45,782 nt of DNA from a virus. Below are positions 14,501-32,490 of the stretch, in pieces. A model generated the notes under the pieces. The model ran no database searches. It saw nothing but the letters and a program-made list of their open reading frames with translations, and was not told the origin of the DNA. The position numbers were made by a program, and so were the translations under genes. Position 1 is the stretch's first letter, and each line of letters starts with the position of its first letter. The DNA lies in the IMG/VR virus record IMGVR_UViG_3300017786_000018, positions 1 to 45,782 of that record; one strand, 5' to 3'.

Positions 14501-17500
14501 GATGCATTCATCGCATCTATTGATTCAACTGGTAATTTTGCTGCAAAGAGAAAAATTTCGACTTCTTCTAAGTCGGAAAAACTTCTTGATCTGATTGTTC
14601 TTGATGATGCAGTTTATTTCGTCTTAGAAACTGCTGATAGTGATAGTGCTACTGATATCAAACTATCTTTCGGTAAGGCACAGATCGGAACTAGTGCAAT
14701 TACGATTGATTGGATCAAGGAAATCAATAACTCCTTGTATTCCTTCCTGAATGTAAGTTTAGTCTCTGATGAATTTAATGAGTGTTATATTAATGCAACA
14801 CTAAGACTCAAGTCGGACAATACTACTAAAGATAGTTTCTGGGTTGGTAAATTTGATACCACTGGAGAGGTTCTTTGGAATTACAGATATGTTGCTCCTG
14901 CAGGTGAGTCTGTTGAAGTTGCACAGAAGGGTGTTATCGACATCTTTGGTGATTTGAACGTAGCATTCACTAGAACTAATAACACTACCTTATATAAAAC
15001 TGTAGATACTGTTAAAATTGGTTATGATGGTAAAATAAAGTCTCATACTAATAATGAATTCAATAAGAATAATATTGAAGGTATTTCAGTACATGCTTTA
15101 ACTGTTGATAACTCTGGTGATGTTTATGCCTTAGGTCAAACCTCTTGGAACAGAAATGAGTTCATCCTTGAGTTTACTTCAGGTGCAACTACCGATACTT
15201 GCGACCATTACACTCCAACATACACAGGAACTGCTGGTGCAATTCAATATCTTGCTAATGCAGCATATCTACCTGGATATCAAACTGCATCACCATCTTC
15301 TTGGGAAAATGCAAATATCACAATTCCTGCAGCACAGTTAGGAACTAAACTTAATGATGATTGGACCTGTGAATTCATGGTCTATAAGAATGGATCTGAA
15401 TATAACGACTTTAGTCAAACTCAGGTCACTTTGATGGCAATTGGTGATGCTACCGTCTCTACTGGTGGTCTGTGGTTGTATTATGATCTTTCTAGTGGCA
15501 AACTTGAATTAGTTGTTACTAACAACACCACTTCTATCAACTCTGCAGGTAGTGCATTACAATCTGTATCAACAACGATGTATGCAGATAATAACTGGCA
15601 GTTTGTTGGATTAACAAAAAGTGGCAATACCTTCACTGGTTATGTAAATGGTATTCAGGTATTCACTGGAACTATCGCAGACACTAGTCTCGGTAATAAG
15701 GATATGTTCTTTGGTAATATTCCTGGCAGAAACACTACATTGGGTGATTTCCGTTCTAATGAACAGTTCCAGGGATATTTCGATAATATTAGACTTAGAA
15801 ACAGATTAGTTACTCCTACAGTTCCTTCTGAGGTTTCTGCTCTACCTACTTCAGGTGGATATGGTCTTGCTTTCAGTTGGGTTGATACTGCTTGGTTCAC
15901 AACTAATATGAATCGTTATGATTACATCGATTATATTGGTTGGGCTCTTAAGACTGATAAGAACTCGGATTCTGCAAGAATTGGCGATCAGGGTGTTAAG
16001 ACTAATACTGGAGTTGGTTTTGCTAGAACTACAGTTACCCCAGTCACTGGATCCACTCTCACTGTAACTAATGTTGGACTTGCTCTGGGTGATGCTGGAT
16101 TGCAAACTCTAGATTTTGATGATGCAACTATCACTCTTGCTCAGGATACAGAAGCATTAACTTATGCTGTAGATGACTGGAGTTCTAGAACATCCACAGT
16201 ACCTTCACCTGGATCTCAAAAACTGAAAGTTACTGCGGTTGTCAGAAACAGATACTATATTAAGGTTACTAACACTGTCAAAATTGATAATGTTCAGGAA
16301 CTTACTATCAATCAACCGTTTGCTTTTACTGTTGGTTCAAAACTTCGTTTGAATAGTGATTCAGGATCCTTTATCAACAGTGGTTATATCTTAAGAATTG
16401 ACAGAACTAATAATAAAGTGTATGTTGCTGTTAATAATAATGCCTGGTCAGATGATCTGAACACTGGTAATCTGCTTACTGAACAGTTTGCAGAGCAAAG
16501 CACTTATGGTATTACTGGTCCTGTTCCTCAGGATGTGAATATTATTACTGATTATATCTTTGAGAAAATCGATAATACCACACCTGGTACGTTTGATATT
16601 GATCTAGACAAGTATAATTTAGATAATACCTATAACGCAGGCGGTGGTCAGAATCTGGACTCCTTTGCTAAGTTCAAACCTTTCAATACTGATTTTTACG
16701 GTGTTAAGATTGAAGAGGTTTCTGGATCATCAACCTTTATTGTTGGATCTGTTGTTAATATCTCAGCTTCTGATATATCATTCAATGCAGCATATACTAC
16801 TGCTCAGATTACAAATCTTACAGGTGTTCTAAAAATCACCCTAGTTGCTACTCTAGACAAGACTTTGCAATGCACTGCAGTTGCTAATACTGATGAAGTT
16901 TATGTAATTACTAACGATAAGCATTATCTGTCAGTTGGTGAGAACATTAGTGTAGATGGTAATCCATCTCAAGAATCAGGTGGTGTCACATATGACGAAT
17001 ATGACGGTTCATTCATTGTTGATAGTGTAGTAAGTTCTAAAGAGTTTACTTATAAACTATCTGCTGCAGCAATCACTGCACCTGCAGTATCAGCAGGTTC
17101 CGTTAGTGTATTTGGTAAGTCTCCCGTCTTGAAGATGTACTATGGTCACCAGTATCTGTTTGACCTCAGTCACTCTTCTATGGCTGGTGCTAACCTGTCG
17201 TTCTCCAAAGATAATCTGTTTAAACTGGAGTATTCTTTCAACTCTATCGAAAGAATTGGAACACCTGGTTTGACTGGAGAAGGACAACCTACTCCTACTG
17301 TAAAATTAAAAGTTGGAAGAGGTACGGTAACTAATATCTCTTACTACTTCGATCCTTCTAGAACTGGTAGTGAATCTCCTATTGCAGATGGTAGTTATCT
17401 TGATATTGTTGATTCCCCTTATTTGGGAACCTTTACTATCACAGATACTTCTGGTGGTACAATCACTACTGGCGATACCATTTATAAATTCTTACTTCCT

Positions 17501-20500
17501 GATGAACCTGAAGGTGTTGCAACAGTTTCTCAATCATCTTATAGCACCAGTTCGACAAAAGCAGTTGGACCTATTTCAGATATTAGAATCGTCAATGCTG
17601 GCGGTTTCTACTCCAGACTTCCTATTGTAACGGGCATTCAATCTTCTCGTAAAATTGAAAGAGTTGCTATCAACGAACCTGGTACTGAATACACTGTTGG
17701 TACTTACAATGCTGTTCCTATCGGTGGAGATGGTGAAGGTGGTTTAGTCTCTATTACTGTCGCAGATGGAACAGATGACGAGGGTGTTTCAATTCCTGGT
17801 CAGGTACAAGAAGTTGTCGTTACTTCTCCTGGTAAAGGATATACAACAGCAACAATTGATCTTGAAGCAATTGAGGGCATTCTTGGTGCTGGATTGACTG
17901 GATCTGGTGCTGAATTGGAAGTTGTTATTCCACCTTTCGGCGTAGGTGCTTCTATCTTCACCAAAGGCGATAAAGTTGGTAAGATTAAGAAACTTAAGAA
18001 CAACAACTTTGGTTATGATTATCCTCATGACTATACACTCCGTCCTGAGATCACATTCCCGATCAACGCACAATTAACATCTACTAGTATTCTTGACAGT
18101 ATTACTGTTACTAATCCTGGTTCTGGTTATTCACAAGCACCTGCTGTTGTTATCACAGGTGGTGGTGGTACTGGCGCTATTGCTGAAGCATCAATTAGAA
18201 ACGGTCGTATTGATCAGATCTTAGTGAAAGATCCTGGTGCAGGATATTCTTCTGAACCAACTGTTTCTTTGAAGTCTTCTTTCAACTATGTTGTTAACCT
18301 TGACTTGGGTCTTCTACAGTTTGCTTTCCCTCACGGAATTGTAAATGGATCGGAAGTTACTCTTAGTGTAACTGATACTGGAGATGGTGCTGATTTCCCT
18401 CTGGCAGCAGGTGCTTTGGGTAGATTGAATTCTACTACAACTTATTTTGCAATCACAGGTTCTGCAAACTCTCTAGAAGATGATCAGTTAAAACTTGCAA
18501 TTACTGCTGCTAACGCAGAACTTGGTGATTCAATCAGTTATGCTAACACTGGTGTTGGCAGACAATCATTACTAACCGAATCTTTTGGTGCTGCTGCATC
18601 TGCAAACGTTATCACTTCTACTTTCCTTGAAGGTGAGTTGGTTTATCAAGGTGATACACTTGAGACTGCAACTGCGACTGGTTATGTCTCTACTAACAGT
18701 GGTTGGCAGGTTGGTCCTAGAGTTCTTAAGATTGTTGATTACACTGGTGATTTCGCAAGCAATCAAAGAGTAACTGGTGTAATTTCTAAATCTTCTGGTA
18801 TCATCAGCGATCTTAAGATTGCAAAGGGTGTTCTAGAGATTGGTTCTATCACTAAGACCACAGGTCAGTTTATTGATGACGTTGGTAAGCCTTCGGAAAT
18901 CATTCAGAAGATCCAAGACTCTTACTATTATCAGGACTTCTCTTACGCTGTTAAGTCTTCTGTTTCTATCGATGACTGGAAGGACATCTTAATCAAGAAC
19001 GTTCATCCTGCTTCGTTCAAAGTATTTGGTGAGTTGAATCTGAATGAGTATGGTTCAATTCCCAACAAGATCACTGACTTCCAGTTAACTAAGTCTGTTG
19101 AACTTGCAAGAGAGTCCATTGTTCCTAACATTCAAAGTTTCTCTCTGGTTGAACCTGTATATTCTGAGTTTAACAATACTGAGGTTCTTTTCCGTCAGAA
19201 GAGACTAACTTCCTCTGAGAATATTTTGACCTCTGTTGTACAGCGTATTGATAATATCTCAAACTTGTTTGATGGCGAAAGAATTTCGTTCCCTCTGACG
19301 GTTTCTGGTAACAACGTTGTTGCTAACTCCAATCAGTTGATGATCGTCTTGAATGGTGTTGCTCAAACTCCTAACACATCATTTGAGGTTCAAGGTGATT
19401 CGATTGTATTCAGCGAACCCCCTTCACCTCCTGCAAGTGTCAAGTATGTCAATGTAACTATTGATCAAATTAATAATGTTAGTTTTGCATTCACTAATCA
19501 AAGTGGTATCTTCCCTTATGTGGGTGACACTCTGATTGGGGTATCTTCTACAGCAAGATTAACTGTAACTAAAGTCCTTGGTGATGTCATTCAAGGTTAT
19601 GTAACTGAAGGAACGTTTATTATTGGAGAACTTTGCACAGTTGGTGCAACTGGATTCTCTGCTAACTTGGCAACTAATACTGCAATCACTAACATTGGAT
19701 TGTTCGCTTTTGGTGAGACGGTTACTAATCTCCAAGGTGATACTGCTAAAGTTGAGCAAATCAACCTGCAAAGCGGTCAAGAAACACCTCTTGCTAAATT
19801 ACGTTATACCATTGGTGCAGCAACTGCTAGTGTCGAAGTTGTAGCAATTGCTGATGTAGATGCACCTGTCCCTGCAGGCACATTTACCCAAGGTCAAAAG
19901 TATCAGTTCGGATCTGAAATCTTTACTGTTAATACTATCACTGATGGATCAGATTCCACAACTCTGGGTCTGACTAGAGGCGAGGATGGTACTCAAGCAG
20001 TAGCACAACAGGAAGACATTCCTATCTACGGAACTCAAATTTCTGTCACTGATGCTCTTACTCTGAGTAAGACTGCTGGTACATACAAATCAACACCTGG
20101 TCTATACGATATCGAACTCAATGATGTCATTATTGGGGCATCTTCAGGTGTTGTTGCTCGAATTACCTCTACATCAGCATATCAAGATCCCGTAACTCAA
20201 GAGTTCATTGGACAGGTTAATATCTCTGAGGGTTCTTCCTTCTTCGGTCTTCTGTTCAACAGAATTACATCTCAGACTTATCCAAATATTGTCTTGGATG
20301 ATATTTCCAAATCAACTGTAAGTATTGTTGATTTCACTGATAATGCTACTGCATTCGATATTCGCTTCCCATCAAATGAACTGATTAACAACTTTGTCAT
20401 TCCTTATGACACTGCATCAGGTGCTTTACAGCAAGACGAATATATTCGCAACTACAAATTAGAGTATGGTAGTTCTAGTGCTGACTTCTTTGCAAATGAA

Positions 20501-23500
20501 GGTGGTAAGACTAGAAAGTTAACTTTCACTGATAGTGTAGGTAGTGGATTCTTTAACGCTGGTCAAGTAATCAGAACCGCTGATACAAAGGCAGAGGTTA
20601 TTGGTTATAATCAGGCAAGAAGAACTCTTTATCTTGGTAAGATTGGTAGAACTCAATCTACAGGTCAAGACTATCATTCAGCAACCTTTACTGCTGGAGC
20701 TTCTCTCAATACTTACAATGAGAGATATGGAACGGCATGTTTATCACTTTCTCGTGGTACTGCTCCTCATACTTTTGTTAGTGGTGTTACTAATGCAATC
20801 ACTGCATCTGTTGGTGCAAGTGGGACATTCACTGCTGCAACAGGAACAACTTATGAACCTCTTTCTGGACTCTTAGTCCTTGAGATTGGAACTCACTCCT
20901 TGACCACCAGCAATAAAGTAACTATTGCCGATAATGGTGTCGTATTCACTTGTGCTTCAGATAATAACACCAATAACTATGCATATCCTCGTTCTGGTGA
21001 TCCTGCATCTGGTCAAGCACTTACAATCACAGGAACCACTTCAACCACAATTACGGTTAACGTTGGAGCAGTTCCTGTTGATGAGTATATTAGTTATGCC
21101 ACCTCTACCGAATTTGGTTTTGGAACAGGTGCATTTACGGTCGAACTTTGGGTTAATCCTATTTCTGTTTCTGCAGGAAGCAAGTCACTCTTTGACTTTA
21201 GAACAGCAGCAACCGAACTGTCACCCTATCTGTATCTTGATGGTGCAAACCTAAAATACTACAATAATGGTAGTGTTACAATCACTGGTACAACAAACTT
21301 AGTTGCTGGAACTTGGTATCATGTTGCCATCAGCAGAAGCGGTAGTACAACTAAAATGTTCCTCAATGGAACACAAGAGGGTGGTGATTACAGTGACGCT
21401 AGTGATTATGGATCCACAAAACCAATTAGAATTGGTGCTGCTTATGACGCCACTGCAGTATTGCCTGGTTATGTCGATGAGTTCCGTGTTTCCAATAATG
21501 CTCGTTACACTGGTACATTCACTGCACCTGCAGGTATCTTCCAAGGTGATGCTAATACAAAACTACTTCTCCATATGGATGGTGAAGATGGTCAAACTTA
21601 TGTTGATGATTGGTCTGGCACCGAAGGATTTACTAAGGGTGAAGACTTCAATAACGGTGCAATTCTTGCAACATCTAGACTTACAGGAGCACCTGCTGGA
21701 TTCGCTGGTAGGTCTCAAAGATACTATGATGCTGCGAACCTGATTGAACTCAACAAAGATTATATTGCTAAGGAAACAGTCTATCTATTGACTCAGCAAT
21801 ATCCATCATTGACAATTCCTGGTGGTAATGTCAATTGTGAAGATGATATTCGCGATATCTTATCTGCGATTATCGAAGATCTTCGCAATGGTTCTAATAG
21901 TCATCTATGGGATGCTGCAGCATTGTATGTCGATAGAACAACTGTTCCTATCACTATCAGTCATGTTGATACTGAGATTACTGAAACCTTATGGGCATAT
22001 GAAAAAGTTGATGATATTCTCCAGTACATCATTAATAATACTCTTTGGACAACTGCTGGTTCTCATGGATTGACGCAGAGAACTGATACTACAATTACAG
22101 ATTCTTCTACGTCATCTCTGACTAAATTTACACCTGTTGCACCAACAACATATGCTGAGGATACAGGTCTGCTGACTCTATCCATTGGATCTCATTCACT
22201 AACAACAGCATCAAGAGTTTCTCTAGCAAGAGAATCAATTATATTCACTTGTGCTGATGATGGTAATGATCGTCAAATCGCTTATCCTGATCCTGGTAAT
22301 GCAACTGCATATGATCAAGTTCTAGCAGTAGAAGCAGTCACTGCAACAACAATCACTGTTAATGTTGGAGCATCTCCTGCTGGTCAGCAATATGCACACA
22401 CATTCGTAAGTGCTGCAGCAAATGCAGTCACTGAACTGGATTACACGACAGGAGATTGTGCAGATGTTTATAGCACAATCGGTAACCTGATTGACATCCT
22501 TACTGATACGCTCACCAATGCAAATCTGAGTTCTCCTGTCGATCATTTAGCAAGTGTAACTAAGGTTGCTCCAGTATTTGAATTCCAGGGTGGTACAGTT
22601 AATGCATACCTAGAAACCGACTTTACAGTTAACTATCAAGACACTGTAAATGATCTGATTTATACCAATCAAATTGATGGTGACGGTCAGTATAGATTTA
22701 GAGATGCCGCTGGATTGATTCGTGCTAACCGCACACCTATCGTAGATAAAGCAGCAGCAGATATGATCACAAGATATCCTGATCTCGCTCAGGATATGCC
22801 TAGAAACCAAAGTGGTGGTAGTACTGATGGTACTATTCGTTGTAAAACTGACCTAGGACAAATTCTAGACGCAGTTGCTAATGATATTGAAAATGGTGGT
22901 AATAGAAATACCGTCACTGCTGGTAACTTCTATGTCGGTGCTAGTGGAGAACTACAGCACATCAGACTACAAGCATTCCAGTCAATCTATGCACATGATC
23001 GCTTAGGTTACTATGCTAAGCAAGCAATTACTGGTGATCTGGATGAAACTAACACTGAATCTATCATTGTTGGTGATTGGGGTATTACAAATGATGGTGG
23101 TAATTGTGCTAACGTGCAATCCGCTATCGATACTCTGATTACAACAATCAATGATATTGTCGCTCCTACAGATGAAGATTTCAATATTGCTGCTGATAGA
23201 ATCTATTTCAACAGAAATTACATTGCTGAAGAAATTACTTCACTCACCACTCAAGAATTTACTTATGATCTGAATGGTGTGAATTACAGCGCACTGACGT
23301 TCCCTGGTTCTAATGGTGCTGTAACTTGCCAAAGAGATCTTAAACTGATTCTCTTAAGCATAATCTCCGATCTTCAAACGGGTGGTACTAATAGCACTAT
23401 TCAAGCAATTGAATTGTATCTGAATGCAAACCTCACTATCAATCATATTGAGAATGAGTTACTTGCTACCATTTACTCTATTGAATTACTCAAGACATTT

Positions 23501-26500
23501 GCTGAGAGAGCAGTACAGAATCTTCTGTATGATCAATTTGCTGCTGTAACTGGTAATCAGTATGCGGCACAATTCACATCACAGACCGCATACCGTGATG
23601 CTCTGTCACCCACAGCAATTAATAATGTTATCTACAGAATCAGAGATCTAGTTGATACCTCTGTTTCTATCCTTGCCCCTGGTAAAGATGAAGCAAGAAG
23701 TGCTGCTAAGAATCTTCTGTATAACAAGAATTACTATAAGGAAGAGATTTCTACACAGGCAATCGCACAGTTTGGTAGTGGATCATGGTCTTATGACACC
23801 TTCGTTGAAGGTCTTGTTGATGACATCGTACATGATTTGATCACTACTGATGTTGATACCAGTGTAACTGCATATACGATTACTCTCAGCGCTTCTACTG
23901 GTGCTTTCGTGGTCGGTGAAACTGTTACATCTAGCGGTGGTGGAACTGCAACTGTTCTTGACTGGGATACTGATACCGATACTTTATATGTCGGTGCATT
24001 TACTGGCACTGCATGGGCAGCAGCAGATACTCTGACTGCTCCTTCTACTGCAACAGGAACTATCGCTACTAGTGGCGTAAGTTCTGTGTATGATTGGTAT
24101 TCTTCTCCAGCAAACGTTAAGATTCTTGCTAAGGCAAGAACACTTACATCTAATATCTCAGGTCAAGTTTCTGGTACTAACCTCTTCACTAATCCTGAGG
24201 CATTTGCTGCTAACTGGCAGTTGAATGATCTTGGTGGTGTTGATTCTCTTCTGATTACAGATGATAGCATTGCTGCTCCTGACGCTACAGTTACTGCAGA
24301 GAAATTCTTCGCAGCAAACTCAAATGGTGGTGTTCATGACACGTTCAGAGATTACAGTCTGACTGCATTTGAAACGTTCGACTCAGGTGCAGTTAAATTT
24401 GACACTGATGGTGAAACTTTCGACACGGGTGCGGTTGGAATTGATGCTACTCAGACATTTACATTCTCAGTATTCTTCAAGTCTGCTGGATCTAATTCCC
24501 TCAGATATAAGATTACTCTTGATCCTGGAACTGCTTCTGAGCAGAACATCTTCTTCGATCTCAATCTCAACGCTGGAACCACAGGATCTCTGTTTATCCC
24601 TCAGGGTGGTATGACAGGCGATGCATTTGGTGCTGTTCCTTATGGTGATGGTTGGTACAGAGCATACATCACGACAACCTTCGGATTTGGTTTCTCTACA
24701 CTCAGAGGATCAGTCATTGTTAACTCTGCTACTGGTGCAACTAGTTGGACTGGTGATGGAAGCGTTGGTGCATACTTATGGGGTGCTAAACTCAATAAGG
24801 GTCCTCTTGATCCATACACTGCAGTCAGTGGAGAAATCTTCTACGCTGATACTGAGTACAACATCAAAAATTATGCAATCGATCTCTTAGAAGGATTTAT
24901 GGGTCAGGCACTGGATGACACCTTGACTTCTCCTTCTACCTCTGCTGGATTCTATAAATTCTATGATTCTACAGCAGCGTCTGATTACAATAAGGCAACT
25001 ATTCAAAGATCTATTCGTTATGCACTGAATATTATTCGTCAGCAATTAACCGTTGATAGTTACTACACAACTCTTGTTCAGGTCAATGGTATTTCCTTGG
25101 TCGCTAAGACATATGGAACTAGAGATATTCCTGTTGGAATTTCTGGTGGTCTGCAAGGTTCTGATTATATTTACGGTCTTAACAGTGACTCTTACGCTGA
25201 ATTGGAAGGAATTACTGTCAATGAAGCACAGATCGTTCAAGTCTATAAGAGATTTAGAATTGATGGTACTATCACCGATGGTCCTTTTACAATGGGTGAG
25301 GTTGTTGCCAAACAAGGCGCACCTTCCATCACTGGAGTTGTCTATGGATTCTTTGAAGATGCAAATTATAAGTATCTAGATGTTCGTGTTACCGCTGGTC
25401 CTTGGGCAGTTACAGATACTCTCGTAGGTGCAACAAACTCAACAACTGCACAAATTAGTGCAGAAGAAGATAGACTGCATGTAATTGATCTGAGAGGCGA
25501 CTTTGCCAACAATATTCCATTCAAGGGATATACCAGTGGCAATTCTGCACTACCTACAGGATTCCTTAAGACACAAGCTGCTGTAACCAGCAATTCTGGT
25601 GGTACTCTGACAGTAGATACTGAAAGTTTAATTGGCAGTTTTGAAAAGACTTCTGTGGTTTATCCTGAGTCCTCTAGACAATATCTGGATGTTTCACAAT
25701 ATGCTGGTCTCGATGTTCAGGTTGGTCAACGAATTGCATCTGAGGGATATATCAGACTTGGAATTGGTATTGTTAGTGGATTGAATACATTCGTAGAAGG
25801 TAATAGACTTTACAAGGTTGTTAACGGCAATCAAGATACTGCTAACTACGCTATTATTACTGAAGTTGATCTTGATAACAACTATCTCTATGTTAGTCAG
25901 GTTGTAGGCACATTTACTAACGGTGATTTAGTTGGTGATTATGGTGTTGGTAACAACTTCCCTGTTGGTTACGCATCGATTAGCACTAAGGTTACAACTG
26001 CTGGCGCTGCTGCTGCTCTTGTACAGGATATTCGTCCAGTGGGTCTTAACAGAAGAATCTACCTGAGTGATATTCGTGGAGCATTCGATCTTAAAGATTC
26101 TATCAAAGGTCTTGATGGATATCGTGCAGCAGTTATTGATAAGGTTGATTTGAAGGCAAGAACAAAACGTGCTTTCAAAGGATTTGATGGTACTCAAACC
26201 AACTTTAAACTTACTACTGATAATGGCGTACAGTATCTTCCTGATCCTGCAGGTCATCTATTAACCTTTATCAATGGTGTTCTACAACCTCCTGGTGCAA
26301 CGAATGCATTCACAGCATTCTCGGATGAAATTCAATTCACCGAAGCACCTGATCCTGGTGCATCCTTCACTGGATTCTATGTTGGTAAGTTGAGACAGTT
26401 GGATGATATCTCGTTTGAGTTTGATTCCTTACGTCAGTCTTTCAACCTCAAGCGTAATGATGTATTCTATTCACTGACATTGACTGATGGTGTTCAATCG

Positions 26501-27091
26501 AGCGTTATTAGACCTGAAAACAATATCATTGTTTCCATTAACGGTGTTCTCCAAGAACCTGGTGTTGGTTTTGAAATTGTTGGTTCTAGAATTATCTTCT
26601 CAGAAATCCCTCGTGTTGGATCGACCTTTGTCGCATTCTCCTACGTTGGTTCTGAAGCAGACGTTGAAGCAGCATCTGTCGTTCCTCCAATTGAATCGGG
26701 TGACTTCATCCAAATTCAAGGTGAGACAACTGACAGAGAAGTTGCTCTGATTGAATCTTCAAACTCCCTAATCACATTTGATTATCTGGGATCTGTCTTT
26801 GGACAAGATGGGCAAGCGTCCGCTGTTCTGACAAGTGGATTCATTGACAGGGTGCAGGTTACTGCTGGCGGTTCTAACTATACATCTAGACCTACTGTGA
26901 GACTTGACTCTATTTCTGGATTCGATGGTCAAGTACGCGCACTGGTAGGTGTTGCAGGTGTTGAAATGAGTAGTTCGGGTTCTGGTTATCAAAACCCAGA
27001 AATCATTATCGAGACATCTGTTCCCGATGATTGGACTGCACCAGATCTTTCCCTATATGGTGAAGAGGTTATCGATCCAGAGATCCTATAA
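8564..27091 (+). CDS. Giant 6175-aa modular baseplate/fibre protein at the gp7 position
   Basis: One open frame of 6175 codons with no internal stop, well over 600 kDa. It sits between gp6 and gp8, where T4 has the 1032-aa wedge protein gp7. The first 90 residues (PDFIGSEYPLFNKFIEYYY...), an FYSSKGTSFSVAYLFKLLYG motif near 690 and a YYQDFSYAVKSSVSIDDW...HPASFKVFGE motif near 3450 are the parts I recognise from cyanophage structural proteins. Other modules, approximate residues: GxGY arrays 315-620, 1120-1335 and 3005-3235; YHYH domain 1370-1545 (HSPIIGWAFDG from 1418); propeller-like 1820-2205; LamG 2258-2428; cupredoxin-like without ligands 2857-2955; split LamG 4053-4327; helical repeats 4386-5096; CBM-like 5205-5425; INGVLQ modules near the C-terminus. 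Probably a wedge scaffold combined with surface-binding functions; the gp7 equivalence is by position only. Confidence 0.85.
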   Translation: MNINKVSQSIASQTPDFIGSEYPLFNKFIEYYYRSQEKTGLGQNIVNNFLQYLDIDKLDIGILDGSTKVVEEITATSDTIVVESVDQFLDANGSILIGDEVIYYESTTTSPNIALTPGISYEQVKLKWTPLAQIIDSFDGTTRSFPLTSQANPIGPPTAQHIIVSLYGDVLIPNTDYTISGTNIVFTNPPRSRIASDDNSSTYITFLSGFIENTIVGIDNISNSFGEGKTEFKLTRNGVKYEPIVDEYLVAVYDNELLVPKVDYFLDGDIFIFNTAPLNGRFLSLYSIEAPIPSFGSGAVGYARIDNLGQLTSISINENGSGYRFQYPPKVNISSVKSGAGANATALVNGIKSSTLLSGGKGYSDTNPPTVVIENPTVAGSKLAELKATVTDGTITAVNIVDSGSGYTFTPRVTFRQPGGAILGAPTISSGSISGTVTVIDGGQGYTTAPTIYVDEPLGDNPIRANIQAVLTNGVITGTNVLNAGQGYTSVPRVAVIDPTGAQVLQTQVDGDGRVIGIEILSGGNGFDDVPSVYIVDNRPNGGIGATATASIFNGRITDINVTNFGSGYSAATPPSVVIQAPPQAEASVEIGLNEITGFSINKSGKEYSKAQFIGCARAASGVTSYTESGNAVFSNDTMAMPAAASANVKCLDALFVKRLLDKYTEQFLPDVPELDYKKIDVRTAIKSVKDFYSSKGTSFSVAYLFKLLYGEQISISYPKDQIIKPSSATWSIDTILRATLVSGDPTNIKDGLLTQEADIADPNIRAASALVENYISIKTSEVEIFELVLSEETIVGSFTVPYKTKLAEPLGIEDNVITVDSTIGWPERNGEFVIGSSEVVQYKEKSLNQFIECTRSVNNIVEDWDSATPVASNFTVFINRGTAQEVVLNVVGIVDAQQTTLTDTGSYYLSGDKLTVSKLGGTSTKPELRTWLYNVKKLIEVSSVTFGGINNRFATITCSNAHGLLVGDQVTVYGANPIIYNGSFFVTSRDSETIFQYQLPQPATVIPQGNILVSVDLNKGKSDNIAVLNSIGPYTTNVQNSFFNDDSVYVASTGIPNYAIGPFPGSALLPGNQRKLNRFPLNPLTISTKSSISPGPVGTWVNGVSIWSYKSDIAKTFGPVTSIGITDAGSDYDAASPPTITISGGGGTGATASVVVDGSITSITVDASGSNYTSSPLVSIVGGGGSGAAATAIITKGVVSRILMNSGGTGYTSQPSITIVGGGGTGATATASVRGPIKSIGVDEGGASYTSQPDVSLSSGSGAVAQAIVSNGRIISIAIISAGSGYTTAPEVTIQGDGFGALARATIDTDGENAGRVTAIEILNRGINYVQGTTIINLTSVGNNATFSSNVFQWTYNLEQTTTFDAAKGAVFAGFNNQYGGEYAHLANPQKLRYILGDNLFVNTNGETLEQEDQLTHSPIIGWAFDGNPIYGPYGYTDPTDQASAISRLDTSYRLKTNLVYNETTNPYPVRTAGPLLTEETAGKFIEDYEYVFGLGDLDQYNGRFCKTPNFPEGVYCYFVTIDTTENGNALFPYVTGPDFNSVVDSWNLNKDAVQQNIPTGVVRYRDPYENVDIDVERAPNASTNALTTEGGEILLFDIEDENRDGIIDAAETADPDQLFEESPLQLFDYFPSVRFDSKVDIEVETITKFEDAAVTGFTVENPGKSYQVNDILTFDNSGTEGIGVSARVSRITGETIQSYGFETVNDKNYGVVQTTVPHNITAGDTVFVDYSPVMDNTNKQFIVRQLKGIEELVIEQSGSGYDDQIPPTIIIDGDGESASLEAVVTTVGSIDNVNIINSGSGYTKNPRVILSHPQVFKKADYYVSTIANQNYVKVNDAIVNGDKELFVCGKTLDNNSNEVAFIAKFSALGVKEWENSLESQTGQTYTEFLKLDVSGNNIWVVGENKPNATILAAYNPDIILAKYTQADDGLSATLNFQKGYAGISGSTRADKVTAIKRYSDTRYIIGGYTNTNSANPYDAFIASIDSTGNFAAKRKISTSSKSEKLLDLIVLDDAVYFVLETADSDSATDIKLSFGKAQIGTSAITIDWIKEINNSLYSFLNVSLVSDEFNECYINATLRLKSDNTTKDSFWVGKFDTTGEVLWNYRYVAPAGESVEVAQKGVIDIFGDLNVAFTRTNNTTLYKTVDTVKIGYDGKIKSHTNNEFNKNNIEGISVHALTVDNSGDVYALGQTSWNRNEFILEFTSGATTDTCDHYTPTYTGTAGAIQYLANAAYLPGYQTASPSSWENANITIPAAQLGTKLNDDWTCEFMVYKNGSEYNDFSQTQVTLMAIGDATVSTGGLWLYYDLSSGKLELVVTNNTTSINSAGSALQSVSTTMYADNNWQFVGLTKSGNTFTGYVNGIQVFTGTIADTSLGNKDMFFGNIPGRNTTLGDFRSNEQFQGYFDNIRLRNRLVTPTVPSEVSALPTSGGYGLAFSWVDTAWFTTNMNRYDYIDYIGWALKTDKNSDSARIGDQGVKTNTGVGFARTTVTPVTGSTLTVTNVGLALGDAGLQTLDFDDATITLAQDTEALTYAVDDWSSRTSTVPSPGSQKLKVTAVVRNRYYIKVTNTVKIDNVQELTINQPFAFTVGSKLRLNSDSGSFINSGYILRIDRTNNKVYVAVNNNAWSDDLNTGNLLTEQFAEQSTYGITGPVPQDVNIITDYIFEKIDNTTPGTFDIDLDKYNLDNTYNAGGGQNLDSFAKFKPFNTDFYGVKIEEVSGSSTFIVGSVVNISASDISFNAAYTTAQITNLTGVLKITLVATLDKTLQCTAVANTDEVYVITNDKHYLSVGENISVDGNPSQESGGVTYDEYDGSFIVDSVVSSKEFTYKLSAAAITAPAVSAGSVSVFGKSPVLKMYYGHQYLFDLSHSSMAGANLSFSKDNLFKLEYSFNSIERIGTPGLTGEGQPTPTVKLKVGRGTVTNISYYFDPSRTGSESPIADGSYLDIVDSPYLGTFTITDTSGGTITTGDTIYKFLLPDEPEGVATVSQSSYSTSSTKAVGPISDIRIVNAGGFYSRLPIVTGIQSSRKIERVAINEPGTEYTVGTYNAVPIGGDGEGGLVSITVADGTDDEGVSIPGQVQEVVVTSPGKGYTTATIDLEAIEGILGAGLTGSGAELEVVIPPFGVGASIFTKGDKVGKIKKLKNNNFGYDYPHDYTLRPEITFPINAQLTSTSILDSITVTNPGSGYSQAPAVVITGGGGTGAIAEASIRNGRIDQILVKDPGAGYSSEPTVSLKSSFNYVVNLDLGLLQFAFPHGIVNGSEVTLSVTDTGDGADFPLAAGALGRLNSTTTYFAITGSANSLEDDQLKLAITAANAELGDSISYANTGVGRQSLLTESFGAAASANVITSTFLEGELVYQGDTLETATATGYVSTNSGWQVGPRVLKIVDYTGDFASNQRVTGVISKSSGIISDLKIAKGVLEIGSITKTTGQFIDDVGKPSEIIQKIQDSYYYQDFSYAVKSSVSIDDWKDILIKNVHPASFKVFGELNLNEYGSIPNKITDFQLTKSVELARESIVPNIQSFSLVEPVYSEFNNTEVLFRQKRLTSSENILTSVVQRIDNISNLFDGERISFPLTVSGNNVVANSNQLMIVLNGVAQTPNTSFEVQGDSIVFSEPPSPPASVKYVNVTIDQINNVSFAFTNQSGIFPYVGDTLIGVSSTARLTVTKVLGDVIQGYVTEGTFIIGELCTVGATGFSANLATNTAITNIGLFAFGETVTNLQGDTAKVEQINLQSGQETPLAKLRYTIGAATASVEVVAIADVDAPVPAGTFTQGQKYQFGSEIFTVNTITDGSDSTTLGLTRGEDGTQAVAQQEDIPIYGTQISVTDALTLSKTAGTYKSTPGLYDIELNDVIIGASSGVVARITSTSAYQDPVTQEFIGQVNISEGSSFFGLLFNRITSQTYPNIVLDDISKSTVSIVDFTDNATAFDIRFPSNELINNFVIPYDTASGALQQDEYIRNYKLEYGSSSADFFANEGGKTRKLTFTDSVGSGFFNAGQVIRTADTKAEVIGYNQARRTLYLGKIGRTQSTGQDYHSATFTAGASLNTYNERYGTACLSLSRGTAPHTFVSGVTNAITASVGASGTFTAATGTTYEPLSGLLVLEIGTHSLTTSNKVTIADNGVVFTCASDNNTNNYAYPRSGDPASGQALTITGTTSTTITVNVGAVPVDEYISYATSTEFGFGTGAFTVELWVNPISVSAGSKSLFDFRTAATELSPYLYLDGANLKYYNNGSVTITGTTNLVAGTWYHVAISRSGSTTKMFLNGTQEGGDYSDASDYGSTKPIRIGAAYDATAVLPGYVDEFRVSNNARYTGTFTAPAGIFQGDANTKLLLHMDGEDGQTYVDDWSGTEGFTKGEDFNNGAILATSRLTGAPAGFAGRSQRYYDAANLIELNKDYIAKETVYLLTQQYPSLTIPGGNVNCEDDIRDILSAIIEDLRNGSNSHLWDAAALYVDRTTVPITISHVDTEITETLWAYEKVDDILQYIINNTLWTTAGSHGLTQRTDTTITDSSTSSLTKFTPVAPTTYAEDTGLLTLSIGSHSLTTASRVSLARESIIFTCADDGNDRQIAYPDPGNATAYDQVLAVEAVTATTITVNVGASPAGQQYAHTFVSAAANAVTELDYTTGDCADVYSTIGNLIDILTDTLTNANLSSPVDHLASVTKVAPVFEFQGGTVNAYLETDFTVNYQDTVNDLIYTNQIDGDGQYRFRDAAGLIRANRTPIVDKAAADMITRYPDLAQDMPRNQSGGSTDGTIRCKTDLGQILDAVANDIENGGNRNTVTAGNFYVGASGELQHIRLQAFQSIYAHDRLGYYAKQAITGDLDETNTESIIVGDWGITNDGGNCANVQSAIDTLITTINDIVAPTDEDFNIAADRIYFNRNYIAEEITSLTTQEFTYDLNGVNYSALTFPGSNGAVTCQRDLKLILLSIISDLQTGGTNSTIQAIELYLNANLTINHIENELLATIYSIELLKTFAERAVQNLLYDQFAAVTGNQYAAQFTSQTAYRDALSPTAINNVIYRIRDLVDTSVSILAPGKDEARSAAKNLLYNKNYYKEEISTQAIAQFGSGSWSYDTFVEGLVDDIVHDLITTDVDTSVTAYTITLSASTGAFVVGETVTSSGGGTATVLDWDTDTDTLYVGAFTGTAWAAADTLTAPSTATGTIATSGVSSVYDWYSSPANVKILAKARTLTSNISGQVSGTNLFTNPEAFAANWQLNDLGGVDSLLITDDSIAAPDATVTAEKFFAANSNGGVHDTFRDYSLTAFETFDSGAVKFDTDGETFDTGAVGIDATQTFTFSVFFKSAGSNSLRYKITLDPGTASEQNIFFDLNLNAGTTGSLFIPQGGMTGDAFGAVPYGDGWYRAYITTTFGFGFSTLRGSVIVNSATGATSWTGDGSVGAYLWGAKLNKGPLDPYTAVSGEIFYADTEYNIKNYAIDLLEGFMGQALDDTLTSPSTSAGFYKFYDSTAASDYNKATIQRSIRYALNIIRQQLTVDSYYTTLVQVNGISLVAKTYGTRDIPVGISGGLQGSDYIYGLNSDSYAELEGITVNEAQIVQVYKRFRIDGTITDGPFTMGEVVAKQGAPSITGVVYGFFEDANYKYLDVRVTAGPWAVTDTLVGATNSTTAQISAEEDRLHVIDLRGDFANNIPFKGYTSGNSALPTGFLKTQAAVTSNSGGTLTVDTESLIGSFEKTSVVYPESSRQYLDVSQYAGLDVQVGQRIASEGYIRLGIGIVSGLNTFVEGNRLYKVVNGNQDTANYAIITEVDLDNNYLYVSQVVGTFTNGDLVGDYGVGNNFPVGYASISTKVTTAGAAAALVQDIRPVGLNRRIYLSDIRGAFDLKDSIKGLDGYRAAVIDKVDLKARTKRAFKGFDGTQTNFKLTTDNGVQYLPDPAGHLLTFINGVLQPPGATNAFTAFSDEIQFTEAPDPGASFTGFYVGKLRQLDDISFEFDSLRQSFNLKRNDVFYSLTLTDGVQSSVIRPENNIIVSINGVLQEPGVGFEIVGSRIIFSEIPRVGSTFVAFSYVGSEADVEAASVVPPIESGDFIQIQGETTDREVALIESSNSLITFDYLGSVFGQDGQASAVLTSGFIDRVQVTAGGSNYTSRPTVRLDSISGFDGQVRALVGVAGVEMSSSGSGYQNPEIIIETSVPDDWTAPDLSLYGEEVIDPEIL
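9506..10420 (+). repeat. GxGY beta-repeat array 1 in the giant gene
   Basis: About eight degenerate copies of a 35-45 residue unit. Each has a strand, the turn G-x-G-Y (for example NGSGYR, GGKGYS, SGSGYT, GGQGYT, AGQGYT, GSGYSA), a 'P.v.i' strand, a Gly/Ala-rich loop (GAxATA) and a 'v.nG.I..I.v' strand. Copies differ by substitutions rather than frameshifts, so this is protein-level repetition. A rigid beta-solenoid or bead-on-string stalk is likely. Confidence 0.8.
11930..12570 (+). repeat. GxGY beta-repeat array 2, with near-identical GGTGGTGG DNA
   Basis: Five to six copies of the same unit, here more uniform, with the loop GGGGTGATA or GGGGSGAAA. At DNA level the loop segments around 11996-12020 and 12227-12252 are almost identical, and another relative lies near 18158-18182. 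This higher identity suggests recent duplication or gene conversion within the array. Confidence 0.75.
17575..18275 (+). repeat. GxGY beta-repeat array 3, including a module shared with gp8
   Basis: Repeats with NAGGFYSR, EPGTEYTV, SPGKGYTT, NPGSGYSQ and DPGAGYSS turns. The middle section (GTYNAVPIGGDGEGGLVSI, then VVVTSPGKGYTTATIDLEAIEGI, then ELEVVIPPFGVGA) lines up residue by residue with bases 33180-33450 of gp8. Confidence 0.75.
21720..23850 (+). repeat. Helical repeat block in the giant gene, four units
   Basis: Four diverged units start near 21720, 22693, 23183 and 23698. The shared pattern is a helix with A...I..N..YI.kE, a loop with a single Cys (C4425, C4760, C4922 in the first three units), then D(l/i)..IL..I..DL..GgN, and an A..Y helix. 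Unit four lacks the cysteine loop and runs into other modules. The block is alpha-helical within an otherwise beta protein. Confidence 0.65.
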
Positions 27092-27114: not shown

Positions 27115-28344
27115 ATGGCTAAACAAACACTCGGTCTTGGAACCACTGCCAACGATAACACAGGTGATACTCTGCGAATCGGTGGTGACAAGATCAATGA
27201 TAACTTCAATGAAGTATATGCTGCATTAGGAAATGGCACTAACTTAACGGTTAGTGTTACCAATCCTGCTGTAGGGCAAGTCTTAAGGTATAACGGAACG
27301 ACGTTTTTACCTTCTGACTTTACAAACCTTACTGCCAACTTAGATGTTAATGGTAGCAATATCGTTTCTTCTTCCAACGGAAATATCGCCATTACTCCTA
27401 ATGGAACTGGAAACGTTACTGTTAGTAACGGTAGTATTGTTAATACATTTAACGGTTCTACAGGTGTTGTAGATTTTCCTACAAAAGTTCAATATAAAAA
27501 TGAATATAGTGCTTTAGGTAATGCTCCTGCAGCAGCAAGTTATGCTGGGTATTTCTTCACAGTTGATGGTGATGATAACCCATATGTTAACATTAATATC
27601 ACCGCAGGTGGTGCTGGTGATGTACAAGCAAAATTAATTACTCAGTATTCCAGTATTGATCTTCTCGTAGATGTAGATACTACAACTGCAGCACCAACTA
27701 CCGATCAAGTTCTTGCTTGGAACGGCACTAATTGGATTCCTGCAGATCAGACAGGTGGAGGCGGTGGTGGAGCAGATCAAAATCTGTTTGCTACATTCTC
27801 TGGTGATACTGGTAGTACTACAGCAAATACTACTACTGATAGTCTCACAGTTACTGGTGGTACAAACATTGCAACTGCTGTAGTTGGTGACGTTCTAACA
27901 ATTAATTTTGATGGAACTATTCCTACAACTTTAGCTGCTCTGACAGATACCAATGTAACTGGTATCACTCAAGGTGATTCGTTGTTCTACAACGGAACTC
28001 AGTGGGCAGTTGTTAAGAGTCCTATTACTTGGTGGGAACTCAACTCTAATGGATCAAACCATTACACATTTAGTGGTCCTGGTTTCCCAACAACACAAGA
28101 TGATCCCACAATCTATGTTCATAGAGGGTTCACTTACGCATTTGATAACTCTGTTAATGGTGGAGCACACCCATTCAGAATTCAATCAACTCAAGGTTTA
28201 AGTGGAAGCGCATACACCACGGGTCAAACTGGTAGTGGAACTAGCGTTCTTTACTGGAATGTTCCTATGGATGCTCCTAACACACTTTATTATCAATGCA
28301 CTATTCATTCTTTAATGAATGGTACTATTAACGTTGTAAATTGA
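27115..28344 (+). CDS. Fibre-like virion protein with C-terminal cupredoxin domain
   Basis: A 409-residue protein. The N-terminus, TTANDNTGDTLRIGGDKINDNFNEVYAAL, is a common start of phage fibre and tail-tip proteins. The middle is a Thr/Asn/Gly-rich beta stalk with a GGGGGG hinge near residue 220. The last 100 residues read as a cupredoxin: WWELNSNGSNHYTFSG, a 'YVHRGFTYAFD' strand, GGAHPFRI with H352, a WNVPMDAPNTLYY strand, then C395-T-I-H398-S-L-M401. The C-x2-H-x2-M spacing plus an upstream His is the type-1 copper ligand set of amicyanin. There is no signal peptide, so this is not a photosynthetic plastocyanin. A redox or metal-stabilised tip or a retired binding fold are both possible. 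A consensus late promoter lies just upstream. Confidence 0.75.
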   Translation: MAKQTLGLGTTANDNTGDTLRIGGDKINDNFNEVYAALGNGTNLTVSVTNPAVGQVLRYNGTTFLPSDFTNLTANLDVNGSNIVSSSNGNIAITPNGTGNVTVSNGSIVNTFNGSTGVVDFPTKVQYKNEYSALGNAPAAASYAGYFFTVDGDDNPYVNINITAGGAGDVQAKLITQYSSIDLLVDVDTTTAAPTTDQVLAWNGTNWIPADQTGGGGGGADQNLFATFSGDTGSTTANTTTDSLTVTGGTNIATAVVGDVLTINFDGTIPTTLAALTDTNVTGITQGDSLFYNGTQWAVVKSPITWWELNSNGSNHYTFSGPGFPTTQDDPTIYVHRGFTYAFDNSVNGGAHPFRIQSTQGLSGSAYTTGQTGSGTSVLYWNVPMDAPNTLYYQCTIHSLMNGTINVVN

Positions 28345-28347
28345 TAA

Positions 28348-31300
28348 ATGGCAAGAACTGTTCCTGGATCTGGTGCCGTCATCGAACCAATCTTTGACGA
28401 GATTTTCGGTGTTCGCGCAGTAAGAGTAAAAAGTGGTGGTAGTGGGTATAGTCCTTCGGATCCGCCAAGACTAACTATTGATGGGTGTGGCACACCCGAT
28501 CAAGAAGCATTGTTATATCCAATCATCGATGATGATTCGGGTAGGATTATTCACGTCCGTGTTCTTGAAAGAGGTCGTGGGTATGATCCTCTAAGACTTC
28601 AAATTATTCCAGAACAGGAAACACCGAACGTTATAACTTCGTTCGATATTAATAAAATCTGGCAAACACATCCTAACTCTCCAACTAGTGGTGTGTTTAG
28701 TGGTGTTACTGATAGATTGACAATTCAATCTGATAATCATCCTAAACCAACCTGGACTGAAGCAGAAGCAGCACCTGGAGGTGGTTCGCTTGTAGATAGA
28801 TCGTTTGATCAAACATTTGTATATCGTGGTGGTAAGGATGTTCCTAATCCTGGAGAGCGAGAAGAGCAGAAAGATAAAGTAATTGGTATTTTAGCGAACG
28901 GTGGTTTACTTCATACTCCAGAATGGGGTACTGATGGTGGAACACCTGCTGGGTTCTCTATTGATACGGTAAAATATGATTATGTTAAGAGCACTGATGT
29001 ATATGATTCAATAACTGAGAATAATGTTCGTTATTATCAAACCAATAAGGTAATTAATGAATTTGATTTAGATAACGGTGTATTTGATTGGGGTAATTTT
29101 GAACAATATACTTGGAATGTAAAAGTTGAGTATGGAAACATCATGCTCACAGTCTCCAATGTTGATGAAACATTAGGCGCTGTTGAAGTTGGTCGTATTG
29201 TTGATGAAGTTGGTGGTATTGCTAAAGGAGAAATTGCAAAAGTCTCTAGAGATAATTTAAACAATATCACTAGAATTTATCTCAGAAGTGTATCTACTGG
29301 AGCAACTTTTTCTAATGGTGATGTTTGTTTAGGATCTAATGGATTTTCATTCACTGTCTCAGATGACCCTAGATCTTTAAATGTATATTATATTGATTTT
29401 GGGCAATACGCTGAAAAATTTGGACCATTTACACCTGGTGTATATTATCTGGCACCTCAAAATATACAAGTTAAAAGAAATTATTTAATTGTTTGGAATC
29501 AGACGGACTCGTCTAATCAGCAGGGTGCAGGACATCCATTACGTTTGAGTACCACAGCAGATGGTACATTGGATGGTGGAACTTTATATTATAAGAGCAC
29601 GGGTCTTTTACAGGGACCTGCAGCAGATTATGAAAATCAATATCAAATGATATTCATGATGAATGCTGATGAATCATCTCAGATTTATTATCATTGTGCT
29701 TATCACAGATATATGTCTGGATATGAGGGTGATGAAGGATATATAAGTCTCGATCCTGTAGTTGAAGACGTTGCACCTACAAATAACTATTACAGTAGTG
29801 ATTTTTATCAATCAGATATTAATGATCTTAATACTATTGATAGATCCCGACATGTAGATGGACACTCAAAAGTTTTGGGTATGTCCTTCGATGGATATCC
29901 CATTTATGGTCCTTATGGATATAATGTTAGTGGTGCTGTTGCAAGAGAAGTTTCTTCTTACAGATTGAGAACTACTACTGAACTTCCTGGTGCTAGAGTA
30001 ACTATTGGTGTTAGTACAGCAGGAACAGTTACTTATGCCTTAACAGTAGCAAATAATCAATATCAATTTGATGGATCTCGTCCTGCCTTCCTAAATCTAG
30101 AAAGAGGTAAGACGTATATCTTCAATCTGGATAATGCCACAAATGATGCTGATACATTCTTGTTAACAACAACGGATGATTCTTGGCATGCTACAGGAAA
30201 TTCCGCCAATATTGGTGATACAAGTTATGTTTATAATGACGGTGTAACATATTACATTGATGGTGGGATAGTAAGTTATACTACATATCTTTCACAGTTT
30301 GCACTTGCAACTACAAGAGAATTGAGAATTACTGTTCGTGCAGATGCACCTAGAGCATTGTATTCATTCTCATATGCAAATTCTGGTAGAGGAATTAGAA
30401 GTGTTCAAGATGCATATATTCTTGGTGATTTAACTGAGGATTATATCTACGATTCTTCTGTAGGAACTTTGGATGAATTTAACGGTAAGTTTACTCCAAC
30501 TCCTGAGTATCCGAACGGAACATATGCTTACTTCATGACTGAAGATAGTGGTGGTAATCCTGTCTATCCATATGCTATTGGTCCTAAGTTTTATAGTGTT
30601 CCTCTCTTTGAGGGAGATTCTGTACCTACATTAGTAGATCAATTCCCTTCAGGTGCTCAGGGTGAAGTTGTTCTGAATCCTGATGTTCCTGGTCAGGTTG
30701 CATATATCAAGATGACCAAAAAGGGTGATGGATTCTTTGGTTCTGCAAAGGCAAGAATTCTTGGTGGTGAAGGATCTGGAGCAACAGGTAGTCCTATTGT
30801 TCAGACAATTACTGGTCTATCACTATTAAATTCAGGAAGGCAGTATGCAACTCCACCTACTCTTATCTTTGAAGGTGGTGGAACTGGGCAAGGTGCTCAA
30901 GGTGCAGCAGAAGTAGATACTACAGGTGAAGTTTCCAGTGTTAATATCGTAAATCCTGGTGAATTCTATCAAGAACCTCCTTTTGTTCTATTCACTGGTG
31001 GTGGCGGTATTGGTGCTAAAGGTGAAGCAATAATTAGTCAGGGTGCTATTACAGGAGTCAATGTTACCGAACCTGGTAAAGGATATACATCACAACCAAA
31101 TATCATCTTCACTAAATTAGTGAATCTGAAGAGGAAGACTCGTTCTCGTCAAGCATTCAATTCTTCAAATATCTATTTGACTGGATTGACAAAGAATGTT
31201 ACTGCATCAGATGATACAATTTATGTTGATTCTACAGATGCATATCCTGGATCGGGATCATTTATTCTTAATGCTGAAACAGTTTCATACACTTCTAAAG

Positions 31301-32490
31301 CAGCAGGTAAATTTACTGGTCTGACTAGAGGTATCAACTTTAATTACGATCAAAGAGTAATTCTTGATGCTGGACAAGAGTATAATTTCAGTGTTGGTGA
31401 TAGAGTTATTAGAAAAGTTGAGAGTGAGAATAATAAAGTTGCAAAGGTTTATGATTTCAACCCAACAACCAGAGAACTCTTGGTCGTATTTGAGGTTGAT
31501 GAACTAGCATTTATCGATGGTGGTCTTCCTTCTACCGAAGATGCTATTGTACAATTTGATGCTGGTGTAGCATCTAGTGCTCCTTCTGGATTCCAACCCC
31601 ACGTTGTTCTGACTTCTGTGGGTGATAGTATTTCACTTCTTACAGAACCTGTTTCTGTTTTACAGGATAGAAGATTTGAAGATGATGATGAGAATAATGG
31701 AGCGGGTGATGGTATCGCAGATTTGGTAAATACTGGAACTGATTATATTAACCAAATTAGTTTGGATGGTGGCATCTATAGTTCTCTTTATGGTATTGAA
31801 GAGACACAAGGTGGTACGAACACAACATTATTCCAAGTTGGTGATCAAGTTAAAGACGCAAGCATTCCATTCAAATATGCTGGAATTGCTACAGCAGGCG
31901 GTCTGAGTGAAGGTGTTGAGCATACTGCTGTTCTAAATATCTACTTAGATGGTAATTTTGGCAATGGTCAAAATTACAGTGTGAATGAAGTTGTTACTGG
32001 TGATGTTTCTGGTGTTCAAGCTACGGTGGTATCTTGGGATACTACAAATGCCGTGCTTCAAGTACAAAGCATCGTTCCATTTAACACAGGTAATATTAAT
32101 ATCGGTATTGCAGGATATTTGTACGAATTCTCTCAAAATGGTACGATCGTAGATTTCTACGTTCAAAATGCTGGTACAAACTATACAGGAACACCAACAG
32201 TCGCTGTAGAAAATGTCGGAGACATTCAAGCAACAGGAACTGTTAACATGACAACTGCGGGTGACCAGGTTGCATCAATCACCATTTCAAATGGTGGTTA
32301 TGGTATCCAACAAACTGTTGATGGTACTTACAACCTACACCCAACCGTTACCTTTACCAATGCAGGCGGTGATAGCACTGGTGCAAACGCTGCAGCATAT
32401 GCAATTCTTGGTGGGGAGAAACTGAATGGTAACGGGGGAGCATCCTATAGAATCAAACGAATTGAATATGCGACAATTGTTCGTTCGTAA
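28348..32490 (+). CDS. Virion protein with cupredoxin, split YHYH and GxGY modules
   Basis: A 1380-residue beta-rich protein. In order: GxGY units at 25-90 (SGGSGYSP, ERGRGYDP); a cupredoxin-like domain at about 345-475 with H396 in GAGHPLRL and C450-A-Y-H453-R-Y-M456, again C-x2-H-x2-M; a YHYH domain beginning at H506 (HSKVLGMSFDGYPIYGPYG) and resuming near 700 (NGKFTPTPEYPNGTYAYFMT); between these halves an inserted cupredoxin-like fold (VNLERGKTY-type strand, DSWHATG, TVRADAPRALYSFSY) without copper ligands; more GxGY units at 815-930; a VDST...RG module at 947-995; and further GxGY units to the end (GGASYRIKRIEYATIVRS). It lies between the cupredoxin fibre gene and gp8 and is almost certainly a virion component; its precise place is unknown. 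Confidence 0.75.
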   Translation: MARTVPGSGAVIEPIFDEIFGVRAVRVKSGGSGYSPSDPPRLTIDGCGTPDQEALLYPIIDDDSGRIIHVRVLERGRGYDPLRLQIIPEQETPNVITSFDINKIWQTHPNSPTSGVFSGVTDRLTIQSDNHPKPTWTEAEAAPGGGSLVDRSFDQTFVYRGGKDVPNPGEREEQKDKVIGILANGGLLHTPEWGTDGGTPAGFSIDTVKYDYVKSTDVYDSITENNVRYYQTNKVINEFDLDNGVFDWGNFEQYTWNVKVEYGNIMLTVSNVDETLGAVEVGRIVDEVGGIAKGEIAKVSRDNLNNITRIYLRSVSTGATFSNGDVCLGSNGFSFTVSDDPRSLNVYYIDFGQYAEKFGPFTPGVYYLAPQNIQVKRNYLIVWNQTDSSNQQGAGHPLRLSTTADGTLDGGTLYYKSTGLLQGPAADYENQYQMIFMMNADESSQIYYHCAYHRYMSGYEGDEGYISLDPVVEDVAPTNNYYSSDFYQSDINDLNTIDRSRHVDGHSKVLGMSFDGYPIYGPYGYNVSGAVAREVSSYRLRTTTELPGARVTIGVSTAGTVTYALTVANNQYQFDGSRPAFLNLERGKTYIFNLDNATNDADTFLLTTTDDSWHATGNSANIGDTSYVYNDGVTYYIDGGIVSYTTYLSQFALATTRELRITVRADAPRALYSFSYANSGRGIRSVQDAYILGDLTEDYIYDSSVGTLDEFNGKFTPTPEYPNGTYAYFMTEDSGGNPVYPYAIGPKFYSVPLFEGDSVPTLVDQFPSGAQGEVVLNPDVPGQVAYIKMTKKGDGFFGSAKARILGGEGSGATGSPIVQTITGLSLLNSGRQYATPPTLIFEGGGTGQGAQGAAEVDTTGEVSSVNIVNPGEFYQEPPFVLFTGGGGIGAKGEAIISQGAITGVNVTEPGKGYTSQPNIIFTKLVNLKRKTRSRQAFNSSNIYLTGLTKNVTASDDTIYVDSTDAYPGSGSFILNAETVSYTSKAAGKFTGLTRGINFNYDQRVILDAGQEYNFSVGDRVIRKVESENNKVAKVYDFNPTTRELLVVFEVDELAFIDGGLPSTEDAIVQFDAGVASSAPSGFQPHVVLTSVGDSISLLTEPVSVLQDRRFEDDDENNGAGDGIADLVNTGTDYINQISLDGGIYSSLYGIEETQGGTNTTLFQVGDQVKDASIPFKYAGIATAGGLSEGVEHTAVLNIYLDGNFGNGQNYSVNEVVTGDVSGVQATVVSWDTTNAVLQVQSIVPFNTGNINIGIAGYLYEFSQNGTIVDFYVQNAGTNYTGTPTVAVENVGDIQATGTVNMTTAGDQVASITISNGGYGIQQTVDGTYNLHPTVTFTNAGGDSTGANAAAYAILGGEKLNGNGGASYRIKRIEYATIVRS

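Follow-up and report, generated by a model that had tools for sequence, protein, structure and literature searches.

A viral baseplate protein very probably ends in a domain that combines the cupredoxin fold with a complete set of type-1 copper ligands. Both the fold and the ligand set are known from other proteins; in the literature that we searched, a strictly conserved site of copper type as a standard part of a baseplate is new. The protein is encoded in a virus record of 45.8 kb, and by the window we mean the whole stretch of 45,782 nucleotides that was analysed.

The gp9-like protein and its C-terminal domain

Judged by its sequence, the 409-residue protein is a gp9-like connector of T4-like marine cyanophages (Table 1). 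The earlier note on this DNA had called it a tail fibre-like protein; the assignment to a virion-type protein holds, but PHROG 677 and the Pfam family T4_gp9_10_N identify a baseplate wedge tail fiber connector rather than a tail fibre. The score against PF07880 (T4_gp9_10_N) is 34.2 bits, for which the curated cutoff is 25. The homology to T4 gp9 and gp10, which is also seen in PDB matches, covers the N-terminal 40-85 residues; beyond this part the similarity ends, and the C-terminal cupredoxin matches neither T4 protein. The 328 phage records with homologues are nearly all from phages of marine Synechococcus and Prochlorococcus, and the IMG/VR contigs with homologues number at least several hundred. 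Upstream there is a gp6-like gene, separated from the gp9-like gene by that of a giant protein of 6175 residues, and gp10-like, gp8-like and DUF4815 genes follow downstream. The giant protein is a single open frame at positions 8564-27091 of the window, and it contains many repeats of the type 'SGYT..P.V.I.GGGGTGA' and a YHYH-like stretch.

Table 1. Positions in the window of the gp9-like protein, its gp10-like neighbour, their domains and the predicted ligand residues.
Feature	Position	Strand	Evidence
gp9-like baseplate wedge / tail-fibre connector, 409 aa	27115..28344	+	PHROG 677 E=2e-192; tblastn matches in 328 phage records
N-terminal T4 gp9/gp10-type domain, residues 3-71	27121..27327	+	Pfam PF07880 E=3.3e-8; phmmer T4 gp10 E=3.5e-5, T4 gp9 E=6.9e-4
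C-terminal cupredoxin domain (predicted), residues 297-409 modelled	28003..28341	+	AlphaFold pLDDT 88.5, pTM 0.82; Foldseek to cupredoxins; amicyanin profile E=6.1e-5
H352, predicted first ligand	28168..28170	+	131/131 gp9 homologues
Y393, invariant aromatic two before the ligand Cys	28291..28293	+	19/19 divergent domains; Y in 381/384 four-ligand domains
C395, predicted thiolate ligand	28297..28299	+	131/131; sole Cys of the protein, single Cys in 123/131 ORFs
H398, predicted second His ligand	28306..28308	+	131/131 gp9 homologues
M401, predicted axial ligand	28315..28317	+	131/131 gp9 homologues
gp10-like baseplate wedge protein, 1380 aa, with split YHYH domain	28348..32490	+	PHROG 708; Pfam PF14240 E=7e-17
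First cupredoxin-like domain of gp10-like protein, residues 365-459; predicted ligands H396, C450, H453, M456	29440..29724	+	profile E=1.1e-21
Degenerate cupredoxin-like domain of gp10-like protein, residues 571-681, no ligands, between the two YHYH parts	30058..30390	+	profile E=1.8e-9

Both motifs that had been read from the letters, H352 in GGAHPFRI and C395-x2-H398-x2-M401 within YYQCTIHSLMNG, are present in this open reading frame exactly as described. Over the 12,842 coded residues of the window that were examined, 0.0035 occurrences of the pattern C-x2-H-x2-M are expected from the composition; the pattern is observed twice, in the gp9-like gene and in the next gene, and two occurrences were reached in 0 of 2,000 shuffles. 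A disulphide role for C395 was considered and rejected since the domain has a single cysteine.

An AlphaFold model of the domain was built on an alignment of the window sequence with IMG/VR rows. The model contains eight strands, in agreement with the cupredoxin-like strand pattern that had been proposed; the domain begins near residue 297-306, slightly earlier than the start given before, and comprises about 105 C-terminal residues. The first histidine lies just ahead of strand E58-61 of the domain, and the cysteine, the second histidine and the methionine lie in the loop that joins the last two strands. A comparison with known structures had been suggested as a check, and in Foldseek the best PDB matches are almost all cupredoxins, with rusticyanin (E=1.2e-4), three-domain nitrite reductase, cytochrome oxidase subunit II, AcoP and amicyanin at the top (Foldseek probability 1.00). 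The closest viral models are those of phage tail, fibre and baseplate proteins. Because the TM-scores to solved cupredoxins are moderate (0.44-0.57), we regard the domain as a distinct cupredoxin subfamily.

A PDB search with the single sequence was too weak (best E 0.07), and a profile was therefore needed. The top PDB hits of a profile of 22 domains are nearly all type-1 copper proteins; amicyanin ranks first, and behind it come copper nitrite reductase, plastocyanin, rusticyanin, auracyanin and azurin. When a profile of 28 sequences was aligned with amicyanin 2gb2, all four ligands were in register; the amicyanin counterparts of H352, C395, H398 and M401 are, in the numbering that we assume, H53, C92, H95 and M98. 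The topology of the model and the profile alignment together put the four residues at known ligand positions. The Pfam models Copper-bind and Cupredoxin_1 gave no reported match for the window protein; the best E values among its relatives, 6e-4 and 3e-4, respectively, fall short of the curated cutoffs, and no Pfam cupredoxin model reached its cutoff for the window protein or the relatives. The profile search, the Foldseek matches and the amicyanin alignment thus support the central claim of the earlier note, a complete type-1 copper ligand set and a cupredoxin fold on a virion-type protein, with a metal site that is predicted.

Retention of the ligand set and spread of the module

Free variation of the ligands among homologues was not found. 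Of the distinct gp9 ORFs whose C-terminus is complete, 131 of 131 carry all four, at pairwise identities down to 39%. A bias from selection by the motif was considered and rejected, since the 45 gp9 homologues fetched by the N-terminal 110 residues alone gave the same result (45/45). In 19 divergent domains with a mean identity of 41%, the only strictly invariant columns are those of H352, Y393, C395, H398 and M401, and the probability that all four ligands would fall in invariant columns is P=2e-6.

When paralogues are included, the 502 distinct domains comprise 384 with four ligands, 3 with three, 15 with one and 100 with none. Among the 497 untruncated domains, the two histidines and the cysteine are all present in 387, all absent in 106 and reduced to one in 4; the ligands behave as a unit and are retained or lost together. 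Almost all losses concern the second cupredoxin-like domain in the gp10-like protein; the full set is found in 99 of 99 gp9 domains and 170 of 172 domains of other proteins. The exact C-x2-H-x2-M spacing is kept in 380 of the 384 four-ligand domains, and a proline follows the first histidine in 370. The distance from the first histidine to the cysteine is variable (commonly 41 to 57), as would be expected because the intervening loops vary.

No gp9 examined is without the axial methionine; one gp10-like relative has glutamine in its place, and others are without methionine. The glutamine occurs in L217 (frame 1 ORF, residues 446-562), and L164 has serine; these axial variants should be useful for comparing the chemistry of the site. 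Phage S-ShM2, the one apparent gp9 exception, was dismissed since its gene is annotated as two overlapping frames, the second of which carries the site. In phage S-SKS1 (L081:3001-3456), GG is inserted in the ligand loop to give C-x4-H, the sole such spacing seen, which is either a sequencing error or a variant.

The second C-x2-H-x2-M of the window belongs to the gp10-like neighbour. Its first cupredoxin-like domain was matched to the gp9 domain by hhalign (E=1.8e-7) with the ligands aligned, and all four ligands are kept in 113 of 118 such domains. The AlphaFold model of this domain is poor (pLDDT 79; five models 54-79) and yielded no significant fold match, and a PDB profile search also returned nothing; the cupredoxin nature of the domain is therefore argued from the profile and the ligands. 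The ligands have been lost completely in 98 of 113 cases of the second gp10 domain. Where the window has this ligand-free domain, a few relatives (L062, L179) have a cupredoxin whose site is intact.

The earlier note had supposed that such a domain on a phage tip would be unusual. In T4-like marine cyanophages, however, the domain is the rule rather than an isolated oddity. The cupredoxin is a mobile module: it occurs in a tail-region protein of the podovirus P-GSP1 (residues 35-122) and likewise in P-SCSP2, twice in a protein of P-SSM2, and in peptidase-S8-like, S74-like, lectin and YHYH phage proteins. The gp9-type proteins of S-CREM1 and Melnitz-1 are without it, and that of S-CREM1 has a different C-terminus; therefore, the domain is an exchangeable head that is inessential to gp9 itself. 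Among cellular proteins, there are relatives in Halobellus and Bacteroidetes that seem to carry signal peptides. In addition, the Prochlorococcus single-cell genome AG-347-K20 (L458:3-3170) encodes a surface-type protein in which SWM repeats are combined with the same cupredoxin module, so that host and phage may share it, and the question arises of whether this is shared chemistry or mimicry. Several other genome hits, L442 among them, are plainly contigs of phages that were binned into bacterial assemblies. Contigs binned as Rhodopirellula and Rickettsiales genomes (L442, L444) carry gp9-type phage genes, which indicates that these assemblies hold phage DNA.

A protein with the domain has very probably been detected in virions. 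LC-MS of purified S-SZBM1 particles identified S-SZBM1_206, a protein of 498 aa, by 9 peptides with 24.9% coverage (PMC9146016). PP650_gp070 of S-SZBM1, which carries the domain and the complete set of four ligands, is likewise 498 aa long, and the genes around it correspond in length, one after another, to S-SZBM1_203, 204, 205 and 207. The length and the gene order leave little room for error in equating the two.

Possible roles of the predicted metal site

By analogy with T4, the N-terminal gp9/gp10-type part would hold the protein in the wedge of the baseplate, with its cupredoxin head facing outward. H352, C395, H398 and M401 would bind a metal, most likely copper, and we consider it likely that the gp9 cupredoxin is metal-bound in the mature virion. 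Cyanobacteria keep their cytosol poor in copper, and the gp9-like protein, which is made there, is without a signal peptide; for these reasons, copper would probably be acquired once the cell has lysed or when the phage reaches the host surface, unless zinc is bound first. A zinc-bound or metal-free site at assembly is possible. The metal would pin the Cys-His-Met loop to the sandwich, and the pinned loop would hold a rigid exposed face around H398. Type-1 copper proteins dock through the face around this histidine, and in the phage the same face may contact the tail fibre or the host surface. If the six wedges and the gp9 trimers of T4 are taken as a guide, gp9 alone would contribute about 18 sites per virion. 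The statement as a whole, with the domain, the anchored baseplate part and a metal-organised exposed face in contact with the fibre or host, has in our judgement a little better than an even chance of being correct. These ocean viruses probably bear a metal where the tail makes contact with the host. Few viruses in sunlit seawater are as common as T4-like cyanophages, and their host recognition is poorly known; a strictly conserved baseplate site of blue-copper type offers a concrete handle on whether virions carry copper and whether adsorption depends on it. If the proposal is true, phage particles would join the discussion of trace metals in seawater.

The main rival explanation is that the metal is purely structural, with copper or zinc stabilising the beta-sandwich in seawater, and that any stable head would serve. 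Displayed virion domains do need stability, the fold persists in the second gp10 domain after the complete loss of ligands, and the different C-terminus of S-CREM1 gp9 is consistent with interchangeable heads. However, a site with such a role would be expected to be replaced in some gp9 or fibre copies, as it was in the second gp10 domain, and yet the gp9 domains without exception and the domains of other proteins with two exceptions keep all four ligands. This retention in gp9 and in free-standing domains, set against the loss in the second gp10 domain, weakens the structural explanation, which we consider rather unlikely.

Redox sensing is possible. A change in oxidation state or copper occupancy at the host surface might trigger a rearrangement of the fibre or baseplate, or electrons might be exchanged with host carriers; a complete type-1 ligand set, the invariant aromatic two residues before the cysteine and the presence of another site of this kind in the neighbouring baseplate gene are all in keeping with this role. 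The sensing of the periplasm and the binding of electron carriers that the earlier note had proposed are not supported by the results. We nevertheless judge it improbable as the function of the site, since no redox partner or contact between sites is indicated, the module is also part of unrelated proteins (fibres, protease-like proteins and cellular adhesins), and the axial residue is glutamine in one gp10 relative and absent in others. The bolder form, in which gp9 and gp10-like heads make up a baseplate ring of redox-active copper centres whose state is switched by host contact and gates the rearrangement, is if anything a shade more doubtful; if true, such a ring would amount to a redox-triggered infection machine.

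The domain might also be a metal-free relic whose Cys-His-Met loop persists because folding or the chemistry of the lone cysteine requires it. The second gp10 domain demonstrates that metal-free versions occur, but relics would be expected to drift as that domain did, whereas the H-C-H residues are retained in an all-or-none manner, the axial methionine is invariant in gp9 and the loop spacing is exact; we consider a relic highly improbable. Type-1 sites bury their metal and bind it very tightly. Since a metal would be so buried and held, and since none of the results points to a host receptor, it is exceedingly improbable that the tail copper would attract a copper-uptake receptor of the host as a 'Trojan horse' in analogy to the Ferrojan idea, although marine hosts do take up trace metals and iron-bearing tails have been proposed for other phages (PMC11705849).

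Relation to known proteins

The phage domain is a cupredoxin in a new place, outside the amicyanin and plastocyanin families proper. The description of the site as amicyanin-like, which was made from the letters, is correct for the Cys-His-Met loop, which is closest to that of amicyanin, and amicyanin is also the best PDB profile match. The description is not correct for the first ligand, where G-H-P-F is closer to rusticyanin and azurin than to the amicyanin motif, which we take, in line with printed alignments, to be P-H-N-V. The gp9 domain scores only 13.9 bits against the NCBIfam equivalog TIGR02657, far below the cutoff of 110.2, and unlike amicyanin it is fused to a baseplate protein, with no redox partner indicated. 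In amicyanin, azurin and plastocyanin, an asparagine follows the first histidine. Because proline replaces this usual asparagine, the phage site is not an electronic copy of amicyanin; the exchange should alter the hydrogen bonding of the cysteine sulphur and therefore the potential.

Plastocyanin differs in its loop, which is C-x2-H-x4-M rather than C-x2-H-x2-M. Rusticyanin is the top Foldseek match of the phage domain; however, it is a free periplasmic protein of about 155 aa, whereas the phage domain is fused. The Cys-His-Met loop of rusticyanin is longer than that of the phage domain. The At5g54830-like domain (PF25489) gave weak matches for 15 of 22 members, the best (E 0.0023) below the curated cutoff.

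The literature searched contained no report of a cupredoxin or blue-copper domain on a cyanophage, baseplate, virion or tail fibre; subscription papers and preprints may differ. PMC8115048 was rejected as a precedent because its subject is viral nirK. The YHYH domain (PF14240) has been described as a predicted metal-dependent hydrolase of phage tails in a paper that mentions neither cupredoxins nor copper (PMC7824862). It is a different domain, but a cupredoxin lies between its two parts in the gp10-like neighbour and in DSL-LC01, and this suggests a recurrent partnership of the two that is possibly relevant to the predicted metal-hydrolase. In DSL-LC01, an Actinomycetia phage (L462:3065-4435), the cupredoxin so placed is intact.
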